A DNA stretch of 26,213 nt from a virus: IMG/VR virus record IMGVR_UViG_3300042471_000110, positions 1 through 26,213 of that record; one strand, written 5' to 3'. Made by a program: the position numbers and the translations under genes. Under the pieces are notes generated by a model that worked only from the letters and a program-made list of their open reading frames with translations, ran no database searches and was not told where the DNA came from. Each line of letters opens with the position of its first letter. Within the stretch, counting starts at the first letter, position 1. This document shows positions 14,231 to 24,085 of this stretch, in pieces.

Positions 14231-15222
14231 TATAATACCCCAGGCTTACCAAAATTGGTAATGTATTTCTCCAAAATCTTATCCACTAAAAGATTTCCAG
14301 TTCCAAAGAAAGAACCCTTGTCATATTCAATTTTATACTGATCTGTAGAATACTTTGCTACATATCTCTTATGATAGTCTAATCTTCCACACTTTAAATC
14401 ATCAATAAGCATAAGGGTTGCATCTTTAATATCATAAGGAACTACTTTATATCCCGTCGCTAATTGGAACAGATAGTTCCATCCCATAGGAAATGTTACT
14501 CCTGGGGCTACGGCAATTGTGTTTGGGCTATCTTCTGAGTCATACATATAAATAGAATCGGAGTATGCTAGTGGAACTCCTCTTGGAAAACCTGCTTGAC
14601 GAATGTAAGAGTCTGTAATTTGAACCCAATCTTTAATAATTGCAGTTTTATCTTTTGTTAACAAATAATTCCATTGTCCATCGCCTTGTGCTTGTGGGCT
14701 GTCATCATTATCCCAAACAAGTTCATTATTTTCATATGCTTTAAGAATTAAATAAGTTCTTTCCCACAATGGCATAAAGTCTGTATTATTACCAATTGTT
14801 TCATACCAAGATCTCTCATAGTAGAATCCTCCAGGAACAATGGAGTCAATAATTGCTCTTGCTAATCCTTCATAATATGTATAGTCTTTGATTTCAGTTG
14901 CGGTAGTTCCAAGTGAACTTGGATCCACATATGGTCGCATGATCTCAAGATTATCTTCTACAACAATATCGCCTTCTTCTGCGCTTGTAGAAGCAGTAGT
15001 ATAAACTGCATCATAAATTGTCAAAGAGTATGACTCATCATAAGTATTAAATAAATCTGGAAGAATATAAGAAATTTGAGAACTTGCTGAAGATGTTATT
15101 GTTTCTGTAACATCATTTACATTTCTAGTACCCTCATTAATTACCAGGATGTAGTCTGTATTTGCTTCTGGCACATCATATGTGATAGAAAGTGGATAGG
15201 GTGGGAGTCTTAAGATCTGCAT
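14230..15222 (-). CDS. Probable head-tail adaptor with an extra N-terminal beta domain
   Basis: A 330-residue protein starting MQILRLPPYPLSITY at ATG 15222, overlapping the previous stop (TAATG). About residues 1-95 are strand-rich with Ser/Thr loops and look like an Ig-type or similar beta domain. From about residue 97 (RPYVDPSSLGTTATEI, then YEGLARAIIDSIVPGG) the sequence turns helical, as in adaptor proteins that dock below the portal, where an R-P-Y/F segment followed by helices is common. Typical adaptors are 100-200 residues, so this one is enlarged at the front. The position (first of the connector genes after the capsid genes) agrees. The adaptor call is moderate and the beta domain is seen only as a composition change. 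Confidence 0.55.
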   Translation of the reverse strand: MQILRLPPYPLSITYDVPEANTDYILVINEGTRNVNDVTETITSSASSQISYILPDLFNTYDESYSLTIYDAVYTTASTSAEEGDIVVEDNLEIMRPYVDPSSLGTTATEIKDYTYYEGLARAIIDSIVPGGFYYERSWYETIGNNTDFMPLWERTYLILKAYENNELVWDNDDSPQAQGDGQWNYLLTKDKTAIIKDWVQITDSYIRQAGFPRGVPLAYSDSIYMYDSEDSPNTIAVAPGVTFPMGWNYLFQLATGYKVVPYDIKDATLMLIDDLKCGRLDYHKRYVAKYSTDQYKIEYDKGSFFGTGNLLVDKILEKYITNFGKPGVL

Positions 15223-15572
15223 TATACTTTGCCGTAATGTTTGGCTACTTCTTCAGGCGTTGCTGATCGCACTGCCTTATGCTTTAGCCACTTTTCGGAT
15301 ACCTCCTTAGTAACAATATTATAACCCCTTTGAAGTTGCCCCACGCCATTCCAATGAAGATTCTTTTCTGAAAATACCGCTACCTTTTCTTGAACGGTAC
15401 TTGATTTAACTTCCTGATGATCCTCTCTAGGAACAAAAGGTAAAATCGCTTCTAATAAGTCTAGTTTTGTAGTTGCACCAAATGTATCAATATTATTTTT
15501 TTTAGCATATGACTTTAACTGTGGTACTGTCTTTTTATTAAATTCTTCTACTACTTCTTTTGTTGTTGCCAT
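15222..15572 (-). CDS. Small SAP/HeH-like protein of the head module
   Basis: A 116-residue protein starting at ATG 15572 (MATTKEVVEEF), with GGAGG five bases upstream. A GTG at 15584 would add four residues but would place the SD inside the gene. Residues 12-45 (KTVPQLKSYAKKNNID, TKLDLLEAILPF) follow the helix-extended loop-helix pattern of SAP or HeH/LEM-like motifs, which bind DNA or protein. The C-terminal part contains WNGVGQLQRGYNIV and a final basic helix (EEVAKHYGKV). Small proteins with such motifs occur between capsid and connector genes in many phages, with no settled role. An extended -10 box lies just upstream. Confidence 0.6.
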   Translation of the reverse strand: MATTKEVVEEFNKKTVPQLKSYAKKNNIDTFGATTKLDLLEAILPFVPREDHQEVKSSTVQEKVAVFSEKNLHWNGVGQLQRGYNIVTKEVSEKWLKHKAVRSATPEEVAKHYGKV

Positions 15573-15588
15573 TTTTTCCTCCACTGCT

Positions 15589-15597
15589 ATTATATCA
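15589..15597 (-). promoter_or_regulatory. Candidate extended -10 promoter before the connector genes
   Basis: The minus strand reads TGATATAATAG, a TGN extension plus TATAAT, in the 31-base gap after the 70-residue gene. The leader to ATG 15572 would be about ten bases and contains GGAGG. It could serve the TAATG-coupled run of connector genes. Confidence 0.5.
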
Positions 15598-15603
15598 GAA
15601 TCC

Positions 15604-15816
15604 CTATCTGTATAAACTTTGTGCTCTTCTTACTCCCGCAGGAGTCCCACTTATAATTACATTTTCACCAAAATTAGGTGTTGGTATGCATCCCAGTGCA
15701 TATCTTTCTGTGATAATTCCATTAGGTCCACTAATGATTGTTCCTATACCGCCAACTGCTATAGCGCCGTCACCACTGTGTTGATGATTTACTGTTGGTT
15801 GTCCTGGATATGACAT
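15604..15816 (-). CDS. Free-standing paralogue of the capsid protein N-terminal arm
   Basis: A 70-residue protein with a good SD (AGGAG, five bases before ATG 15816). Residues 3-24 align with residues 11-32 of the capsid protein: YPGxPTVxHQHxGDGAxAxGxIG. Further on, both contain TPNFG and then a GTPxG segment followed by an arginine and an aromatic residue, so almost the whole small protein matches the capsid arm and stops where the capsid fold begins. It is Gly-rich with no predicted helix, membrane segment or signal. It lies 66 bases after the capsid stop, separated by a hairpin. It could be a minor head protein, a decoration or plug that mimics the arm, or an assembly regulator; none of these can be chosen from sequence. 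The HxH pair is shared and could bind metal (speculative). Confidence 0.8.
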   Translation of the reverse strand: MSYPGQPTVNHQHSGDGAIAVGGIGTIISGPNGIITERYALGCIPTPNFGENVIISGTPAGVRRAQSLYR

Positions 15817-15831
15817 TTGTTCTCCTAATGT

Positions 15832-15866
15832 GATAAAGGAGGACAGTTTTACCTGCCCTCCTTATC
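15832..15866 (-). terminator. Hairpin between capsid gene and arm paralogue (weak terminator or processing element)
   Basis: On the minus-strand RNA, GAUAAGGAGGGCAG pairs with CUGUCCUCCUUUAUC around a GUAAAA loop. That is 14 pairs with one bulged base and one G-U pair. The G-U pair becomes an A-C mismatch in plus-strand RNA, so the structure suits minus-strand transcripts. Only a short U run follows (UUUAUCACAUU), so termination would be partial. It ends six bases before the SD of the 70-residue gene. Confidence 0.6.
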
Positions 15867-15882
15867 GGTTAGTTTTTACAAA

Positions 15883-17022
15883 CTATGCGGTTGGGTCAGA
15901 GGCTGCATCTGCGTAAGCAACTGCATCCTGCTCTTCCCATTGCAAGCCAAAACGAACGAATACTGTGTACTCGATTGTATCTTTCTTTGGCTTGTATTCA
16001 CGGTTTACGGTAATATCTCTCTGGAAACCCCATACACGGTTAGCAGGGAATGTCAAATCGACATAATCTGCTGGGTAGTAAGGAACTTCCATAACATCAA
16101 TTCCAAGAACACGAGTTGTACGTGCTCCACCGAATGTCTGTCCAACACCATCTAGGTATTGCTGACGGTTACGCTCTGTACCACCAGTACGAGGTGCAAA
16201 CGCTTCAGCAATTGCATCAGCGAGTGTACCGTTGTTCTTAACAATTCCCTGGAAAGCATCTGTACCAGCATAGAACTTTAGGTTCTGCTTGATAGCACGA
16301 TACTTACGTGGCATTGCAAGAATGATGTCCTGCATGACCTCTGTTGTCCAGTTGTCATCAGTAACAGTAACGAGTGCCTCATGAGCATCTCCGTCATTTT
16401 CTACTTTGTAAACAAAGCCTTCCATGATTGAAAGGAATGCTCCTGTAGAACCATCACCATTAATGGCTAGGTCTTCGATATCGTTAGCAAATGCATTGGT
16501 CATCAAGCGAACTAGATGATCTTCCAACGCACCTCCTTCAATATTGTCTTCAAGTGATTCTGTAGATACTTCCCAATCAAGACGAATCTTTTTGGTTGTT
16601 AGTTCTACCTTAGTGAATGAAGCACCTGTGTTTGTATAATCGTTGCTTGCTTGTGCAGCAGCACGAATAACACGCTCACCAACGTTAACCTTCTCGATTT
16701 CCATGGTGTTTGCTCGCATTGTAACTCTACGACCATCTTTGGCGAGAACTGTTGCATCCCACACGTAGTCGATGAAGCGGCGAGCCTGCTCTGGCAGAAG
16801 AATACCACCTGGTGTACCAGTTGGACTTACTGCGTTCGGGCCGTTTGTCACACCAAAGTTTGGTGTAGCAATGTTACCCAGTTGAGCGCCAACATCAGAT
16901 GTGGTTGGACTGGTTGCTGTTGCACCGCCAATGTCACCTGAAGCGAAAGCACCATCACCTGCGTGTTGATGCGCTACGGTTGGAGCACCTGGATAATTTT
17001 TTACGATTTCTTGTTCCGACAT
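15883..17022 (-). CDS. Major capsid protein, HK97 fold
   Basis: A 379-residue protein from ATG 17022 (MSEQEIVKNYPG). A GTG at 17031 overlaps the SD, so the ATG, eight bases after a perfect AGGAGG that extends as AGGAGGTGA, is preferred. About residues 1-75 are a Gly/Ala/Thr/Pro-rich arm with HQHAGDGA and TPNFG motifs. The HK97-type core follows: ARRFIDYVWDATVLAKDGRRV opens the N-arm/E-loop region, then VSTESLEDNIEGGALEDHLV (spine helix), AFANDIEDLAINGDGS and the P-domain/A-domain strands, ending with YTVFVRFGLQWEEQDAVAYAD. It comes directly after the protease-scaffold gene. The GC content is far above neighbouring genes (36 of 60 in the sample from 16741), as expected for a heavily expressed gene. 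Any cleavage site in the arm cannot be placed from sequence. Confidence 0.93.
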   Translation of the reverse strand: MSEQEIVKNYPGAPTVAHQHAGDGAFASGDIGGATATSPTTSDVGAQLGNIATPNFGVTNGPNAVSPTGTPGGILLPEQARRFIDYVWDATVLAKDGRRVTMRANTMEIEKVNVGERVIRAAAQASNDYTNTGASFTKVELTTKKIRLDWEVSTESLEDNIEGGALEDHLVRLMTNAFANDIEDLAINGDGSTGAFLSIMEGFVYKVENDGDAHEALVTVTDDNWTTEVMQDIILAMPRKYRAIKQNLKFYAGTDAFQGIVKNNGTLADAIAEAFAPRTGGTERNRQQYLDGVGQTFGGARTTRVLGIDVMEVPYYPADYVDLTFPANRVWGFQRDITVNREYKPKKDTIEYTVFVRFGLQWEEQDAVAYADAASDPTA

Positions 17023-17030
17023 ATTGTTCA

Positions 17031-17046
17031 CCTCCTAGTGAATATA
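17031..17046 (-). promoter_or_regulatory. Ribosome binding site of the capsid gene with a weak -10-like box
   Basis: AGGAGG (17036-17031) continues as TGA, a nine-base match to the 16S anti-SD end and the strongest in the window. It decides the ATG at 17022. A TATATT lies at 17046-17041, but without TGN, so a promoter here is only possible. Confidence 0.55.
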
Positions 17047-17049
17047 CCT

Positions 17050-17631
17050 TTAATTAAATAGGTCGGCTGTTTTGAGGAAACGTCCGCCCCATAGGGATTT
17101 TTGAGTTTTCATTTCTGGAAACTCCTGCACGATCTCGCCTAGATCGCCAGACTTGCGGAAAGCAGTATCTTTTTCTACAAGATCTACTCGCTTTCCAAAC
17201 TCATTAAAAGTTCCCTTTACTTGGCTTACCTCATTTGCTACAGACTTTACTTCGCCTGTAACTGTTTCAAGGGACTTTGTGATTGCTTCAACGTTAGCCT
17301 GCATAGACTTAACTGTTTCAGCAAGATTGCTCAAGGCATTAGTAAGAGAGTCATTGATTTCAGCAACAGACTTTGCAATCTCTGCTGCACTATCAACTAC
17401 TGCATCTACTGACTTTTCCGCTGCGATGTCAACAACAGGAGCATCTGCTACTGGTGCTGAATCTGCCACTGGCTCTGCAACAGGTGCTTCTGCAGAAACT
17501 TCTGCTGGAGCATCTACTGGAGCCTCTGCTACAGCATCTGCTGGAGCCTCTGGAGCAACCTCAACATGTTCAACTACTTCTGCTGCATCTGCAACTGGTG
17601 CATCTACAACTTCCATTGTTTCTTCTGTCAT
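17050..17631 (-). CDS. Nested scaffold protein from an internal in-frame start
   Basis: The in-frame ATG at 17631 (residue 248 of the protease, MTEETMEVVD) follows AAAGGAGG by eight bases, one of the best ribosome sites in the window and better than that of the protease itself. Initiation here gives 193 residues containing the Ala/Pro/Val-rich segment, the coiled coil (AEINDSLTNALSNLAETVKS and onward) and the C-terminal WGGRFLKTADLFN, i.e. a complete scaffold without the protease. This matches the lambda C/Nu3 layout, in which scaffold is made in excess from inside the protease gene. The start site is seen directly; the product and its scaffolding role are inferred. Confidence 0.78.
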   Translation of the reverse strand: MTEETMEVVDAPVADAAEVVEHVEVAPEAPADAVAEAPVDAPAEVSAEAPVAEPVADSAPVADAPVVDIAAEKSVDAVVDSAAEIAKSVAEINDSLTNALSNLAETVKSMQANVEAITKSLETVTGEVKSVANEVSQVKGTFNEFGKRVDLVEKDTAFRKSGDLGEIVQEFPEMKTQKSLWGGRFLKTADLFN

Positions 17632-18372
17632 AGGATTTTCCTCCTTTGTAATCTTAATTGTCCTAATGCCTTTTGCACTATCAACTAAGAACTTTACTGT
17701 TGTGATATCTTCTTGATCTTCAACAAATCCAATGTTTTTCATTGAACCATTGCAAGATGGACAAGTTTCATCAGAATCTTTTGAAAGTCTTACGATATCA
17801 TCTGTTTTGCACCAATAAACTGTATCAACAACTGCCTTTGCTAAATACCCGCCAAGTTGTCCCTTTTCAATAGAGATAACATTAGCAAATTGATTTGCTG
17901 GGTTGTCAACAAGCGATAATTCATGCAAGTCGTACTCTTTAATTATACGCACTGATTTATCAATTTTTTCATCATACATGTCATCAGACTTTGTAATATT
18001 TCCACCAATTGAAAAACCAGTTAAAGTTCCATCAAGGACTTTCTCCCAAGTATCCTGGGCACCTTTTGAAACATAAGCAGAAACATAGACTCCGCTATAA
18101 AACTTTTTTACCTGTGGATCAAAATAGCGATCCTCTTTAAAAGAAACAACCTTGCCTACAGCACTGGGTTGATGCATCTCACGAAGGTTGCCACGGAATT
18201 TCTTAAATGCCTCTATACTTGCTTCTGTCGTAACGATATCGCCTTGCTTATCTACGTTATCTAGAGTAGCAAAGCCAGAAACAATACGACGTTCTTGATC
18301 TACTTTACCAATGGGCATTGAAAAGCGAACATTGTCGCCATCAGTAACCCAGTGTGCTTTATTTATAGTCAT
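17050..18372 (-). CDS. Head maturation protease fused to scaffold domain
   Basis: A 440-residue protein starting MTINKAHWVTDGDNV. Residues 15-175 have the prohead protease pattern (S78/XkdF-like): SGFATLDNVDKQGDIV, a likely catalytic His67 in REMHQPSAVG, a likely catalytic Ser121 in GTLTGFSIGG, and the conserved HELSLVDNPAN at 150-160. Residues 188-207 contain C-x15-C-x2-C (WCK, CPSC), a partial zinc-ribbon-like knuckle with only three cysteines. Residues 254-315 are an Ala/Pro/Val/Glu linker. Residues 325-400 are a helical coiled coil of scaffold character. The protease digests scaffold and often the capsid arm during head maturation. No SD precedes the ATG; an extended -10 box ends ten bases before its A, so the mRNA may be leaderless or nearly so. 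The gene lies between portal and capsid, the canonical place. Confidence 0.88.
   Translation of the reverse strand: MTINKAHWVTDGDNVRFSMPIGKVDQERRIVSGFATLDNVDKQGDIVTTEASIEAFKKFRGNLREMHQPSAVGKVVSFKEDRYFDPQVKKFYSGVYVSAYVSKGAQDTWEKVLDGTLTGFSIGGNITKSDDMYDEKIDKSVRIIKEYDLHELSLVDNPANQFANVISIEKGQLGGYLAKAVVDTVYWCKTDDIVRLSKDSDETCPSCNGSMKNIGFVEDQEDITTVKFLVDSAKGIRTIKITKEENPMTEETMEVVDAPVADAAEVVEHVEVAPEAPADAVAEAPVDAPAEVSAEAPVAEPVADSAPVADAPVVDIAAEKSVDAVVDSAAEIAKSVAEINDSLTNALSNLAETVKSMQANVEAITKSLETVTGEVKSVANEVSQVKGTFNEFGKRVDLVEKDTAFRKSGDLGEIVQEFPEMKTQKSLWGGRFLKTADLFN
17640..17647 (-). promoter_or_regulatory. Internal ribosome binding site for the nested scaffold
   Basis: The minus strand reads AAAGGAGG, then eight bases, then ATG in the protease frame. 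It lies inside coding sequence where no SD would be needed unless a second protein starts there. Confidence 0.75.
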
Positions 18373-20476: not shown

Positions 20477-23400
20477 TTATACTGGTGTTGCAACATTGGT
20501 TGACCAGATTACCTCTGAATATAGGCTTAATTCGTTCGGTTCAATACTAAGTCCCTCATCATCATCAATAATAATCTTATTTGTTCCAAGATAGGTCTTA
20601 TATACATCTACTGGATTTACCCCATATAGTTCAGATGAGGAAATAATAAGAACACCTTCCCAGATAAAATTATTAAGCCAGAATTCCCATTCAAAGTTTG
20701 TTATACCGTCAGTTTCTACCCTGAGCCATGGCCTTGTAAGATTACTCTGGACCTGCTGAAGATTATTTGCCTGATAATAAGCAATATTATTAAACACCAC
20801 TGGACCATTAAGATTAATACCGCCCAGATATAAATCAAAGTTAAGAGATGTAGAAAATGCTAGACCAAGAACTCCCCATTCTTTAATTGTTATTATTGGC
20901 TCTCTTACTAGAATACCGTTCCAATAATAGGCAAGACCATTAAAGTTTCCACCAGTTGCTACGCTTTTTGCAAATACTCTTGCTCTTGACCCATCGCTAT
21001 CCAAGGCCTCCATAAAAAACTTAATCGTGTCACCTTTATACTCAATTTCAAATAGTTCTGTTTCTGCTAATGGGAATTTATCTAAATCAGATCTCATCCA
21101 CATCTGCATGGCGCTTACACGATAGTTATCAGCAATTGTGCTATTAATTGGAATAGCAATTCCACGACTTACCTGTGGATCATACTGTCCTCGTATTTCT
21201 ATGCCAGAAGTTCTATTTAGATACAGGTATGGAGTGCTGCCTTTATAAATGCTAAAAGGATTTTTTGCTTTGTAGTCATAGTAAAGACCAGCACGTGTGT
21301 ATGGAAATAGGTCAACACCAAATCGTGTTCCAACTGGATTAAACGAGTTATCATTAAACGCCTGAGATGCAAGTTCAAGTCTACGAAGTGTAATTGGCTT
21401 TGTCAAAATACCACGAATATTAAATTCAAGATGATAGACAATTGCCAAATCATTAAAGTCAACAGACTTATCAGGATAAATCAGGGTGTTATCTACTACC
21501 TCAAATTTTGTAACATCCCAATATTGATAATCTGAAATGTCTATAACAGATCCTTCTTTAGGTGGCTCTACGGTAGTAAAAGCAGACTGTGGTGAGTTAG
21601 CGCCATCTGCAACATACTGAAAAGTTAAATAACTTCTAATTGATGCTTCTGTGGTGTCGTATTCATAAAACTTAAGAGACTTAGACTCCATATCCTCATA
21701 ATTGTTCCAGCCAGTAAACAAGTAGTTGTCTAAATCATTGTATGTTCTTTGAACTGGATGACGATATTCTTGAAACAGTTCTTCATAAGTCCAGGATGAA
21801 GTGGTTTCATCTTCTAACAGTTTTGATGGTTTTGGATATCCAATATTAAACTGAATAAAGTCTAAATCGTAGTATGATCCACCCTCTTCATTTGTAACAA
21901 ATTGAGCAAAATATGATAGTGGCAAATAATCTTCCCAATACCCCGCAACTCCAATATCTAAATAATATGTGTCGTATGCCTCTGTAGGCAAAAGGGTATA
22001 ACTTGCGGTATGAGCAAGAAGCGCTTTAGCATTTTCTGATTCTGCTGAACCAGTGGCCAAATAACTATCCAAGATTGCAGTTCCGTTTAACTCAAAATGA
22101 TTTTCAATTTCAGATGCGTTGTATGATGTTGATAATCCTACAGAATAGATCTTTCCAGTGAACTGATATGTACCCGTTCCATCTCCACCAACATACATTT
22201 TTAATCCATTTTGATTACCAAAGAATGCTGCTACATTACCGCCAAAATAACTAGACAGGGTTTGGATTTGAATACCAGCAGCATATTTTTCATCTTCTAC
22301 AATTATGTCTGTAGTGTATATTTGCTCTTCTGTGCCATTAAAAGTTAAATAATAATGAATTTCATCCGATTCTTTTCTAATACTGAAATCATTACCAGTT
22401 AAAGGGTTATAGATTTTGAATAGTATTTCATCTGTTCCCAAGTCATCCGAAGAAAATACACCATAGATGCTATGAATACCCTCGTTTATAATATTAAATT
22501 GTGGGAAGTTAAAGTATGATTGAACAGAAACCCAAGAGGTGTTTGGTCTAAATGTTATGAAGGTATCATCATTAGGATCTTGAATTGCTTGATTATCATC
22601 ATAGAGTTCTTGTAGTGTTTTTGTACCAGTGCTTATCTGTGGTAAAGAATAGGTTGGAGTTGTTATAGATGTTTCTGTTGTTACGAGATTATCAAACGTA
22701 CCCTGGTCCCAACGGGCAAAGTCTGGATAGTTATAGTTTGCAGTGTAATCAGCAAACGGATAATCAATAAACGCCTGTGTTCCTCCATAAGCAGAGTTAA
22801 TAGTTTCTGGAGAAAGAACTCCTTGACCATAAACCCAACGACGCTTTGCTACCGTTACCGCAACAGAGTATGGATAGATAGCAATACAATCTAACTCAAT
22901 TGGACTTACTTCTTCATATGCATAAAATCCAAGCCAGTCTTGATCATCGCCGTATGCGTCTACAATGTTAGGTAAGTCCAAAGTGTCTGTATTGATACTT
23001 AAGCCTATGACTTCTTCTCCATTAATTAGTACGCTAACATTATTTCTAATCATTCTAATATGAACCAGCATAGGTCTAAACCATTCACCAACAAAGTGTG
23101 AAGAGAATTGTTTTCCAATAACTAAAGTTAAAAAGCCACCCTCAATATACAAACCATCTGTTGATGCTATAGGACCAAATATTCTTTTAGGGGCAAATGT
23201 ATTTGAGTTTATCCTCATCCAAAACTCAACAGTGTAATCTTTGAACTGACCATCTTTATTTAAAAACCCTTTGCCAGGAACGATGAGAGATGGCTCTCCA
23301 TCATTTTCTCTTAGCCTTGTAATATTTGATGCACCATAAACCATTGGAAGAGCAGTATTACGAGCCTTTAGATTATTATCATTAATTAAATAATATCCAA

Positions 23401-24085
23401 CCTGTCCACCAAGACCATAAGGATCTGCAGGAATAGCCTGAGCAGTTGTTAGTGGAATGTTTGATGGCAATGAAACTGGGGTAACGCCTAAAGAAACGGC
23501 ATTAAAATCTTCTGACCATTGTCCAAGAGTAAAACCATTTACATAAAATATATAATCAGATGTAGTTCCACCTTGATCATATTGAAACTCTATAACCATT
23601 CTTAATTCTGTATCTTCATCTGGTATTTCAAAGGTACCAGAAACAAAACTCCAAGCCTGAAAGGAGGTGGTATTAAAGGTTTGAAGTTTTTCTACAACTT
23701 GTGAAGAGGTTGTATCTGTGTATTGGTATCCTATTGATACCGCCGTTAAATAGGGGCTCTCTGAATAAAAATATGCACCAACACAAAATGTTTTTAGGTA
23801 TTGATCTATTTCTGTAAAGTTTATAATGTTTTGGCTAACACAGACAACGCTTTCTGAAGTTACCGCTGGAACATCGCCCTCAACTATAGATGTTACGCTA
23901 TCTGGAAATGGCTCATTTGAAAAAGAAGAACTTGTTGCTGTGCCATTTGTGACTGTCCACAGACCTAAATCTCTGTCTGTTTCATTAATAAGGCTAATAT
24001 AGTCAGCCTGATCATCTAACGCCCACATGATAGTGGGGTGTTCCGCAAATATCTTTTCTGCGTATAAGTTAGATGGGGTAGTCAT
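20477..24085 (-). CDS. Large LamG/concanavalin-like structural protein (probable adhesin or fibre)
   Basis: A 1202-residue protein starting MTTPSNLYAEKIFAEHP at ATG 24085, with AGGAG six bases upstream. It is almost entirely beta. About residues 85-195 form a jelly-roll-like part. Residues 230-410 read as a LamG-type lectin domain (DYTVEFWMRINS, VSVLINGEEV, WLGFYAY). A second similar region lies at about 510-670 (FLKIYN-type strands, GLKMYVGGDG, FTGKIYSVGL) and a third at about 960-1130 (VSAMQMWMRSD, FFMEALDSDG, NFDLYLGGINL). LamG-like proteins in phages are usually minor tail or fibre proteins that bind surface polysaccharide. No collagen-like or coiled-coil stalk is present. It lies before the portal rather than among the tail-tip genes, so attachment to head or tail is open. 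An extended -10 box precedes it. Confidence 0.8.
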   Translation of the reverse strand: MTTPSNLYAEKIFAEHPTIMWALDDQADYISLINETDRDLGLWTVTNGTATSSSFSNEPFPDSVTSIVEGDVPAVTSESVVCVSQNIINFTEIDQYLKTFCVGAYFYSESPYLTAVSIGYQYTDTTSSQVVEKLQTFNTTSFQAWSFVSGTFEIPDEDTELRMVIEFQYDQGGTTSDYIFYVNGFTLGQWSEDFNAVSLGVTPVSLPSNIPLTTAQAIPADPYGLGGQVGYYLINDNNLKARNTALPMVYGASNITRLRENDGEPSLIVPGKGFLNKDGQFKDYTVEFWMRINSNTFAPKRIFGPIASTDGLYIEGGFLTLVIGKQFSSHFVGEWFRPMLVHIRMIRNNVSVLINGEEVIGLSINTDTLDLPNIVDAYGDDQDWLGFYAYEEVSPIELDCIAIYPYSVAVTVAKRRWVYGQGVLSPETINSAYGGTQAFIDYPFADYTANYNYPDFARWDQGTFDNLVTTETSITTPTYSLPQISTGTKTLQELYDDNQAIQDPNDDTFITFRPNTSWVSVQSYFNFPQFNIINEGIHSIYGVFSSDDLGTDEILFKIYNPLTGNDFSIRKESDEIHYYLTFNGTEEQIYTTDIIVEDEKYAAGIQIQTLSSYFGGNVAAFFGNQNGLKMYVGGDGTGTYQFTGKIYSVGLSTSYNASEIENHFELNGTAILDSYLATGSAESENAKALLAHTASYTLLPTEAYDTYYLDIGVAGYWEDYLPLSYFAQFVTNEEGGSYYDLDFIQFNIGYPKPSKLLEDETTSSWTYEELFQEYRHPVQRTYNDLDNYLFTGWNNYEDMESKSLKFYEYDTTEASIRSYLTFQYVADGANSPQSAFTTVEPPKEGSVIDISDYQYWDVTKFEVVDNTLIYPDKSVDFNDLAIVYHLEFNIRGILTKPITLRRLELASQAFNDNSFNPVGTRFGVDLFPYTRAGLYYDYKAKNPFSIYKGSTPYLYLNRTSGIEIRGQYDPQVSRGIAIPINSTIADNYRVSAMQMWMRSDLDKFPLAETELFEIEYKGDTIKFFMEALDSDGSRARVFAKSVATGGNFNGLAYYWNGILVREPIITIKEWGVLGLAFSTSLNFDLYLGGINLNGPVVFNNIAYYQANNLQQVQSNLTRPWLRVETDGITNFEWEFWLNNFIWEGVLIISSSELYGVNPVDVYKTYLGTNKIIIDDDEGLSIEPNELSLYSEVIWSTNVATPV

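Follow-up and report, generated by a model that had tools for sequence, protein, structure and literature searches.

Why should a phage encode, directly behind its major capsid protein (MCP), a separate protein of 70 residues that resembles the N-terminal arm of that capsid and nothing else of it? The question is raised by a virus record of 26,213 bases (hereafter the window, meaning the whole stretch of DNA analysed), which carries a head and tail module on the minus strand. The first part of the module encodes a class II-type (B12-dependent) ribonucleotide reductase, a 1202-residue protein, a 136-residue protein, the portal, a prohead protease (Peptidase_S78; 17050-18372, minus strand) and the MCP. 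The small gene comes next, followed by genes for a 120-residue protein, a protein that weakly matches adaptors, further proteins and a tape measure protein of 2533 residues. The C-terminal half of the protease has weak matches of coiled-coil type, and for this reason we call it scaffold-like. The 1202-residue protein (20477-24085) has no PHROG match and a weak match to a carbohydrate-binding family (CBM_4_9) under Pfam's cut-off. The MCP gene (15883-17022, minus strand) encodes 379 residues from an ATG with AGGAGG upstream; an alternative GTG start at 17031 gives a protein of 382 residues (15883-17031, minus strand). The small gene (15604-15816, minus strand) starts at an ATG and encodes an arm-like acidic body with a basic C-terminal tail, VRRAQSLYR. 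Both genes lie where the preliminary description had placed them.

The 379-residue protein matched an HK97-fold MCP family of virion structural proteins (PHROG 1623; phrog_1623, E 2.1e-71) over its shell domain, residues 73-375. Its AlphaFold model was of low confidence (pLDDT 39 with 107 sequences). A Foldseek search with this model returned nothing at or below 0.001; HK97-type capsids stood among the weak matches (best 8ho3_M, E 6.7e-3) and were given no weight. A profile of the MCP gave no useful match among PDB sequences (the best, at 0.66, was a designed protein, with 8ho3 at 0.85). The small protein had been described as ending where the HK97 fold begins, and this agrees with the alignments of distant known MCPs, which among the matches listed start mostly at about residue 71-77 of the 382-residue reading, with a few starting at 31, 51, 120 or 143. 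The first long helix predicted by the low-confidence model begins at residue 77 of the 379-residue reading. The arm that precedes the shell domain comprises about residues 1-75 (16798-17022, minus strand) and contains the motif YPGAPTVAHQHAGDGA (16948-16995, minus strand). Its counterpart at the N terminus of the small protein is YPGQPTVNHQHSGDGA (15763-15810, minus strand).

The small protein is homologous to this arm. By BLASTP it is identical to the MCP at 30 of 66 residues (45%; E 4e-14 in a single comparison), and the match is limited to the first 75 or so residues of the capsid protein. The local alignment of small protein and arm scored 124, and the next best open reading frame of the window scored 40. 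Shuffling the small protein or the arm (5000 shuffles each) gave maxima of 61 and 62, respectively, and none of the 5000 reached 124. The real score is so far above these maxima that the objection of a chance likeness between glycine-rich sequences fails. In divergent relatives, the homology extends through NPSGTPNGIRLPxQ up to the start of the shell domain: the stretch SGPNAVNPSGTPNGIRLPxQNNF of the small proteins aligns with SGPNAVNPTGTPGGILLPEQARRF of the MCP, and arginine-rich tails come after it. Thus, the basic tail stands where the MCP has its shell domain; searches of Pfam and PHROGs at E 0.1 found no HK97 shell domain in the 70-residue protein. The tail was basic in all 81 distinct pairs of arm and small protein (net charge +2 to +7, median +5), with a length of 7-26 residues and runs of up to RRRRR. 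The bodies of the small proteins were acidic, as were the arms (median net charge -3 and -4, respectively, in the same 81 pairs). The window itself contains only the MCP arm and the small gene, with no second copy of the arm elsewhere. Among 15 long contigs, which may be incomplete, nine carry one small gene and six carry none, and no further arm copies were found in them at E 1.

How widespread the arrangement is was assessed in relatives gathered from viral contigs with five kinds of query (the small protein, its alignment, a divergent small protein and two MCPs), which supplied most of the 337 sequences examined, the window included. Before counting, we dropped loci with tandem (L104, L212) or split (L016, L124) MCPs, two from Streptomyces (L112, L113) and two on pieces without an MCP (L125, L247). 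The 329 loci corresponded to 237 distinct combinations of MCP and small protein, 201 of them with a full-length MCP, distinctness being defined by protein and not by contig. In this search-biased set, 92 of the 201 full-length MCPs had a small gene directly downstream, 101 had none and 8 were on pieces too short to judge; absence was scored only where at least 600 nt could be read downstream of the MCP. The expectation that a small gene stands behind the capsid gene in related phages is therefore borne out for many of them (92) but not for all, as 101 of the 193 MCPs judged are without it. Presence also depended on the query: the best 80 loci nearest the MCP of the window comprised 31 with the gene, 45 without and 4 undecidable, and the best 80 nearest a distant MCP (L111) comprised 0, 74 and 6. 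In phages without the small gene, the slot behind the MCP is occupied by a homologue of the 120-residue protein or by another gene.

Where the gene is present, its setting is constant. The window has a spacer of 66 nt between the two genes and a ribosome-binding-site-like word, AGGAGA (15821-15826, minus strand), ahead of the small gene (TTAGGAGAACAAATG), as the preliminary description had it. A spacer of 63-78 nt separates the MCP stop from the small gene in 88 of the 89 completely read small genes, the 89th being the truncated gene of L051, and 80 of 81 members have a Shine-Dalgarno-like word no more than 25 nt away. To arrive at the sets of 81 pairs, we removed duplicates of a given combination of arm and small protein, along with the truncated gene of L051 and three small genes that were cut off. 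In L051 (670-1859), a deletion seems to have fused the two proteins and shortened both, joining about residue 349 of the MCP to about residue 27 of the small protein; it may be an assembly error. On a tree of the shell domain (126 thinned ingroup rows), the distribution of the small gene needs 11 changes, whether gains or losses, 4 of them forced by supported branches, and near-identical shells occur both with and without the gene (L071, L072). Arm class could be compared with gene presence in three independent pairs, an underpowered contrast. Several phages that lie near gene bearers on the shell tree (L049, L086 and L064/L078/L092) have neither the HxH of the arm nor the small gene and look as if they had lost the two together.

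The small proteins have a single, old origin on the simplest account. In a tree of 60 small proteins and 60 arms (120 rows, 82 columns), the small proteins formed one clade with SH-aLRT support of 100. Support was 98 when the tail and shell-start columns were left out, so that only arm-like columns remained, and 40 arms from genomes without the gene were added (160 rows, 66 columns). Many inner forks are unresolved because the trees have so few columns. The separation of small proteins and arms into two clades points to an old duplication, for which a single event is the simplest account; repeated independent duplications, considered as a cause of the likeness within genomes, are disfavoured on the same grounds. 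Over 645 pairs, dN/dS was 0.19 for the small protein, compared with 0.23 in the arm and 0.12 in the shell. These sequence comparisons indicate that the small protein is under purifying selection, and they show none of the relaxed constraint of a decaying pseudogene. A tandem arrangement of MCPs was found at L104:3497-6010, on a contig shared with L212. The two copies are near-identical from late in the arm onward; the second is preceded by the first 45 nt or so of a small gene, out of frame, and followed by an intact small gene. Such an arrangement could have come from unequal recombination of the arm with the small gene, or it may be an artefact of assembly.

The arm and the small protein have also changed in step. 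The segment YPG...HxH.G-G of the arm differs between lineages, and the small protein follows the MCP of its own genome: PTVxHQH occurs with PTVxHQH, PTExHAH with PTExHTH, a one-residue deletion is found in both partners, and LNGEG accompanies LNGEG where HxH has been lost. HxH is present in both proteins in 79 of 89 pairs and in neither in 9. The resulting agreement of 88 in 89 has one exception, L051, explained by the truncation of its small gene. Partial Mantel correlations between the arm motif and the small-protein motif, given the shell, were 0.58 in 54 thinned pairs and 0.60 in 81 (0 of 2000 permutations), and remained at 0.50 and 0.49 when the rest of the arm and of the small protein were also held. 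The second halves of the two sequences were likewise coupled (0.63). Across segments, the correlation between the arm motif and the rest of the small protein was lower (0.26-0.31 given the shell, in the 54- and 81-pair sets). Within the 45 thinned pairs that have HxH, coupling is not specific to the segment: the arm motif correlated with the small-protein motif and with the rest of the small protein to the same degree given the shell (0.42 and 0.43), and the motif-to-motif value dropped to 0.16 (2 of 2000) with all else held.

Comparison with other head proteins places this coupling in context. Six other head proteins, taken whole, gave values of 0.08-0.34 against the arm motif given the shell, among them 0.16 for the scaffold-like protease and 0.08 for the portal. 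Of 698 windows scanned, the two with the highest values (0.65) lay in the first helix of the MCP shell, which is nearly invariant; the motif of the small protein was the best outside the MCP (0.62), followed at 0.5-0.55 by another MCP stretch, DAFQGIVKNNGTLADAIA, a 149-residue protein and the adaptor. The best windows of the protease and the portal reached 0.32 and 0.47. The adjacent 120-residue protein correlated with the small-protein motif at 0.48 given the shell.

Arm and small protein matched modestly better within a genome than between genomes (amino-acid match 0.412 versus 0.382; in 64 of 81 the own-genome value exceeded the mean of the other genomes). Where the residues were identical, their codons agreed no more often within genomes (0.434) than between them (0.437), with 0.403 expected from usage. 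A match visible in amino acids and not in codons therefore speaks for selection at the protein level rather than recent copying, and recent gene conversion, as distinct from conversion older than synonymous saturation, is disfavoured as the cause of the match. Three genomes are telling, their arm and small protein agreeing against the expectation from the shell or from the nearest small protein. L225 has a shell 96% identical to those of deletion-type phages, yet neither its arm nor its small protein has the deletion. In L143, both are of the E type, and its shell is nearest to V-type phages among the gene bearers; on a larger tree, L143 groups with three phages that have neither the gene nor HxH. 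The small protein of L031 is nearest to those of the window type, yet it shares the deletion and the E with the arm of its own MCP. Phylogenetically independent co-changes numbered 1-5 per trait on the best tree and 1-3 on supported branches (67 thinned), and because they are so few a sign test cannot reach significance. Co-evolution of arm and small protein is thus supported, with few phylogenetically independent changes.

The interval between the MCP and the small gene contains a strong stem-loop (15832-15866, minus strand). Relatives have a comparable structure after the MCP whether or not they carry the small gene: the mean folding energy of the 66 nt after the MCP was -25.4 with the gene (n=92) and -27.2 without (n=108). 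An intrinsic terminator was considered and rejected, as the stem-loop is absent from the list of the terminator scan and folds equally well where there is no small gene. Downstream, between the small gene and the next, lies an extended -10-like element, TGATATAAT (15589-15597, minus strand). The corresponding pattern, TGRTATAAT, also occurs in the eight relatives inspected for it. In three examples it stands between the small gene and the next gene, and in six examples without the small gene it comes after the stem-loop. Promoter-like -10 sites in the region were as frequent as in shuffles (5 by scan versus 4.6), so that the case for this element lies in its recurrence among relatives. The next gene (15222-15584, minus strand; ATG at 15572) encodes the 120-residue protein, whose N-terminal half is weakly similar to Rho_N/SAP domains. 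A C-terminal pattern of this protein, xWxGVGxLxxGYN, appears by eye to recur in a shorter protein encoded behind the MCP of L110. Because the small gene stands behind the MCP stem-loop and ahead of the next promoter-like element, its product is probably made in a smaller amount than the MCP, by transcription through the stem-loop; we infer this low dose, the stem-loop not being among the listed terminators.

Taken together, the sequences suggest that the small protein is a minor head-assembly protein located among the MCP arms or at their binding site; to co-assembly with the arms, the leading form of this reading, we assign a probability of roughly 0.45. The preliminary description had proposed an arm paralogue that could enter the shell, occupy the binding site of the arm or decorate the head. 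As a paralogue it is conserved in relatives, adjacent to the MCP gene and co-varying as if it shared the site of the arm or contacted the arms; entry into the shell, decoration of the head and binding to protease or scaffold are candidate roles. The gene would have arisen when part of the MCP gene was duplicated long ago, in the simplest case just once, which freed a copy of the N-terminal arm, and the duplicate would have been retained for head assembly. The parts of the arm that we take to make contacts (the YPG..HxH..G-G motif, the glycine-rich linker and GTPxG) have been kept and the HK97 shell domain has been replaced by the basic tail. In the procapsid or head, the small protein may then take up places among the MCP arms, whether within mixed arm-arm clusters or in spots that lack an arm or would be better without one, its tail serving as an anchor to an acidic surface or to DNA and its dose held below that of the MCP by its position behind the stem-loop. 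That arm and small protein changed in step suggests that the free arm cooperates with the shell in building the head. More tentatively, free arms could mix with shell-bound arms in the same clusters, as a separately encoded, co-evolving and dose-controlled assembly part; such a component, having no shell domain, might complete or tune the peptide network of the shell.

Several observations count against co-assembly with the arms. The small gene is dispensable, given that 101 of the 201 related MCPs are without it, and 14 of those 101 MCPs have an HxH arm all the same. The windows in the first shell helix slightly exceed the small protein in their correlation with the arm motif, the coupling within HxH pairs lacks segment specificity, and the neighbouring 120-residue protein co-varies with the small motif. 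In a rival reading, the small protein mimics the arm and competes with it for the arm's binding site on a third partner (the scaffold-like protease, the portal, the adaptor or the shell). Assembly would be timed or limited in this way, and the arm and the small protein would match each other as both track the same partner. We regard such competition as rather unlikely, while noting that motif and co-variation fit it just as they fit co-assembly, that the protease offers a scaffold-like C terminus and that windows of the MCP core, the adaptor and the 149-residue protein co-vary with the arm motif (0.5-0.65). The protease, its most obvious partner, co-varies weakly, both whole and in its best window, and the whole portal hardly at all, although one portal window does better. 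Present evidence is compatible with both co-assembly with the arms and competition for a shared partner.

Other roles are less likely, and we take them in descending order. An arm-derived decoration or cement protein, binding outside the head at local symmetry axes, is improbable. Decoration genes commonly sit beside the MCP gene, as the small gene does, and the small protein is glycine-rich, with beta strands predicted at residues 19-38 (AlphaFold pLDDT 47 with 39 sequences, low confidence). For comparison, scaffolding proteins form helical or coiled-coil rods that are cleaved or released on maturation; the same low-confidence model shows no helix. The HxH of the small protein recalls the HxH motifs found in trimeric metal-binding fibre tips, but the motif is present in 79 of 89 small proteins rather than throughout. 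Nor did the protein match a described decoration family in Pfam or PHROGs at E 0.1, or in PDB sequences at E 10 with a profile of the family; the 70-residue protein had no match in an annotated phage collection at E 10, and the 39 family members gave a few weak matches to tape-measure or unnamed PHROGs (best E 0.079, tape-measure). A collagen-type run of GXY repeats, as in SPP1 gp12-type decoration proteins, was absent by inspection from the 39 aligned members. Slightly more improbable is an internal protein that docks by its arm inside the shell, holds packaged DNA with its arginine-rich tail and may be ejected with it. The invariably basic tail and the acidic, arm-like body would suit this role, yet the tail is short and the proposal presupposes an inward-facing arm, when the arm could be inner or outer. 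Least of all do we favour a functionless piece left by a capsid duplication, be it selfish or a relic, which is very improbable. The many relatives without the gene agree with it, and the tandem MCPs of L104/L212, unless assembly errors, illustrate a possible duplication route; against it stand the low dN/dS over 645 pairs, the nearly universal ribosome-site-like word and the match of the small motif to the MCP arm.

The MCP has relatives among known phages. In the annotated collection, 217 records matched it, all below 60% identity, and 127 of these were Streptomyces phages. We inspected eight: the Streptomyces phages Karp and TunaTartare, the Rhodococcus phages Weasels2 and NiceHouse, phages of Stenotrophomonas, Rhodobacter and Vibrio, and Dulem virus 37. 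In all eight the match to the shell of the window starts at about residue 18-23, and hence they have no such arm. Within 2.5 kb behind their MCPs, no open reading frame resembled the first 60 residues of the MCP beyond shuffle level, and profiles of the small proteins and of the arms gave a sole match there, at E 0.5. A pattern-based scan of the genomes of 84,980 species found one relative (L338, RGSB01000058.1), on a contig of a metagenome-assembled genome labelled Actinomycetota; it carries a relative of the MCP and no small gene, and may reflect an actinobacterial host or a free phage binned with it. This contig makes an actinobacterial host likely, and the group probably comprises phages of freshwater actinobacteria. 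The small gene may serve as a marker of this group in metagenomes.

Accessory proteins of phage heads are usually seen as unrelated add-ons; here, one derives from the arm of the capsid itself, and the match between the two persists across widely diverged phages, with the intervening shell evolving more slowly. If the free arm does build into the head, the phages would represent a natural experiment in which a capsid is tuned by a contact peptide supplied in trans, and a protein of 70 residues would provide a simple handle on the function of capsid arms. In the part of the literature searched (open-licence PMC papers), we came across no account of a system that employs a capsid arm in free form. 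The closest known MCPs, those of the Stanwilliamsviridae (Karp, TunaTartare) and of Weasels2 and NiceHouse, are of the same family (36-44% identity across the part of the shell that aligns) and follow portal and protease in the same order as in the window, but have 331-339 residues, without the 75-residue arm, and no open reading frame like the small family within 2.5 kb behind them. The small head proteins SPP1 gp12, lambda gpD and T4 Soc likewise have genes of their own; the small protein of the window differs from decoration and cement proteins in being MCP-derived, with neither a sequence match to them nor a GXY run. A portion of a larger head protein is likewise produced on its own for assembly in lambda Nu3/C and herpesvirus UL26.5/UL26, as may be the case here. 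The part shared in those systems is the scaffold end of the protease, read in the same frame; in the window, the shared part is the MCP arm, encoded by a separate and diverged gene. T4 gp24 is a full-length paralogue of the shell protein gp23 and thus, as in the window, an MCP paralogue within the same phage, but the paralogue in the window has dispensed with the shell domain.
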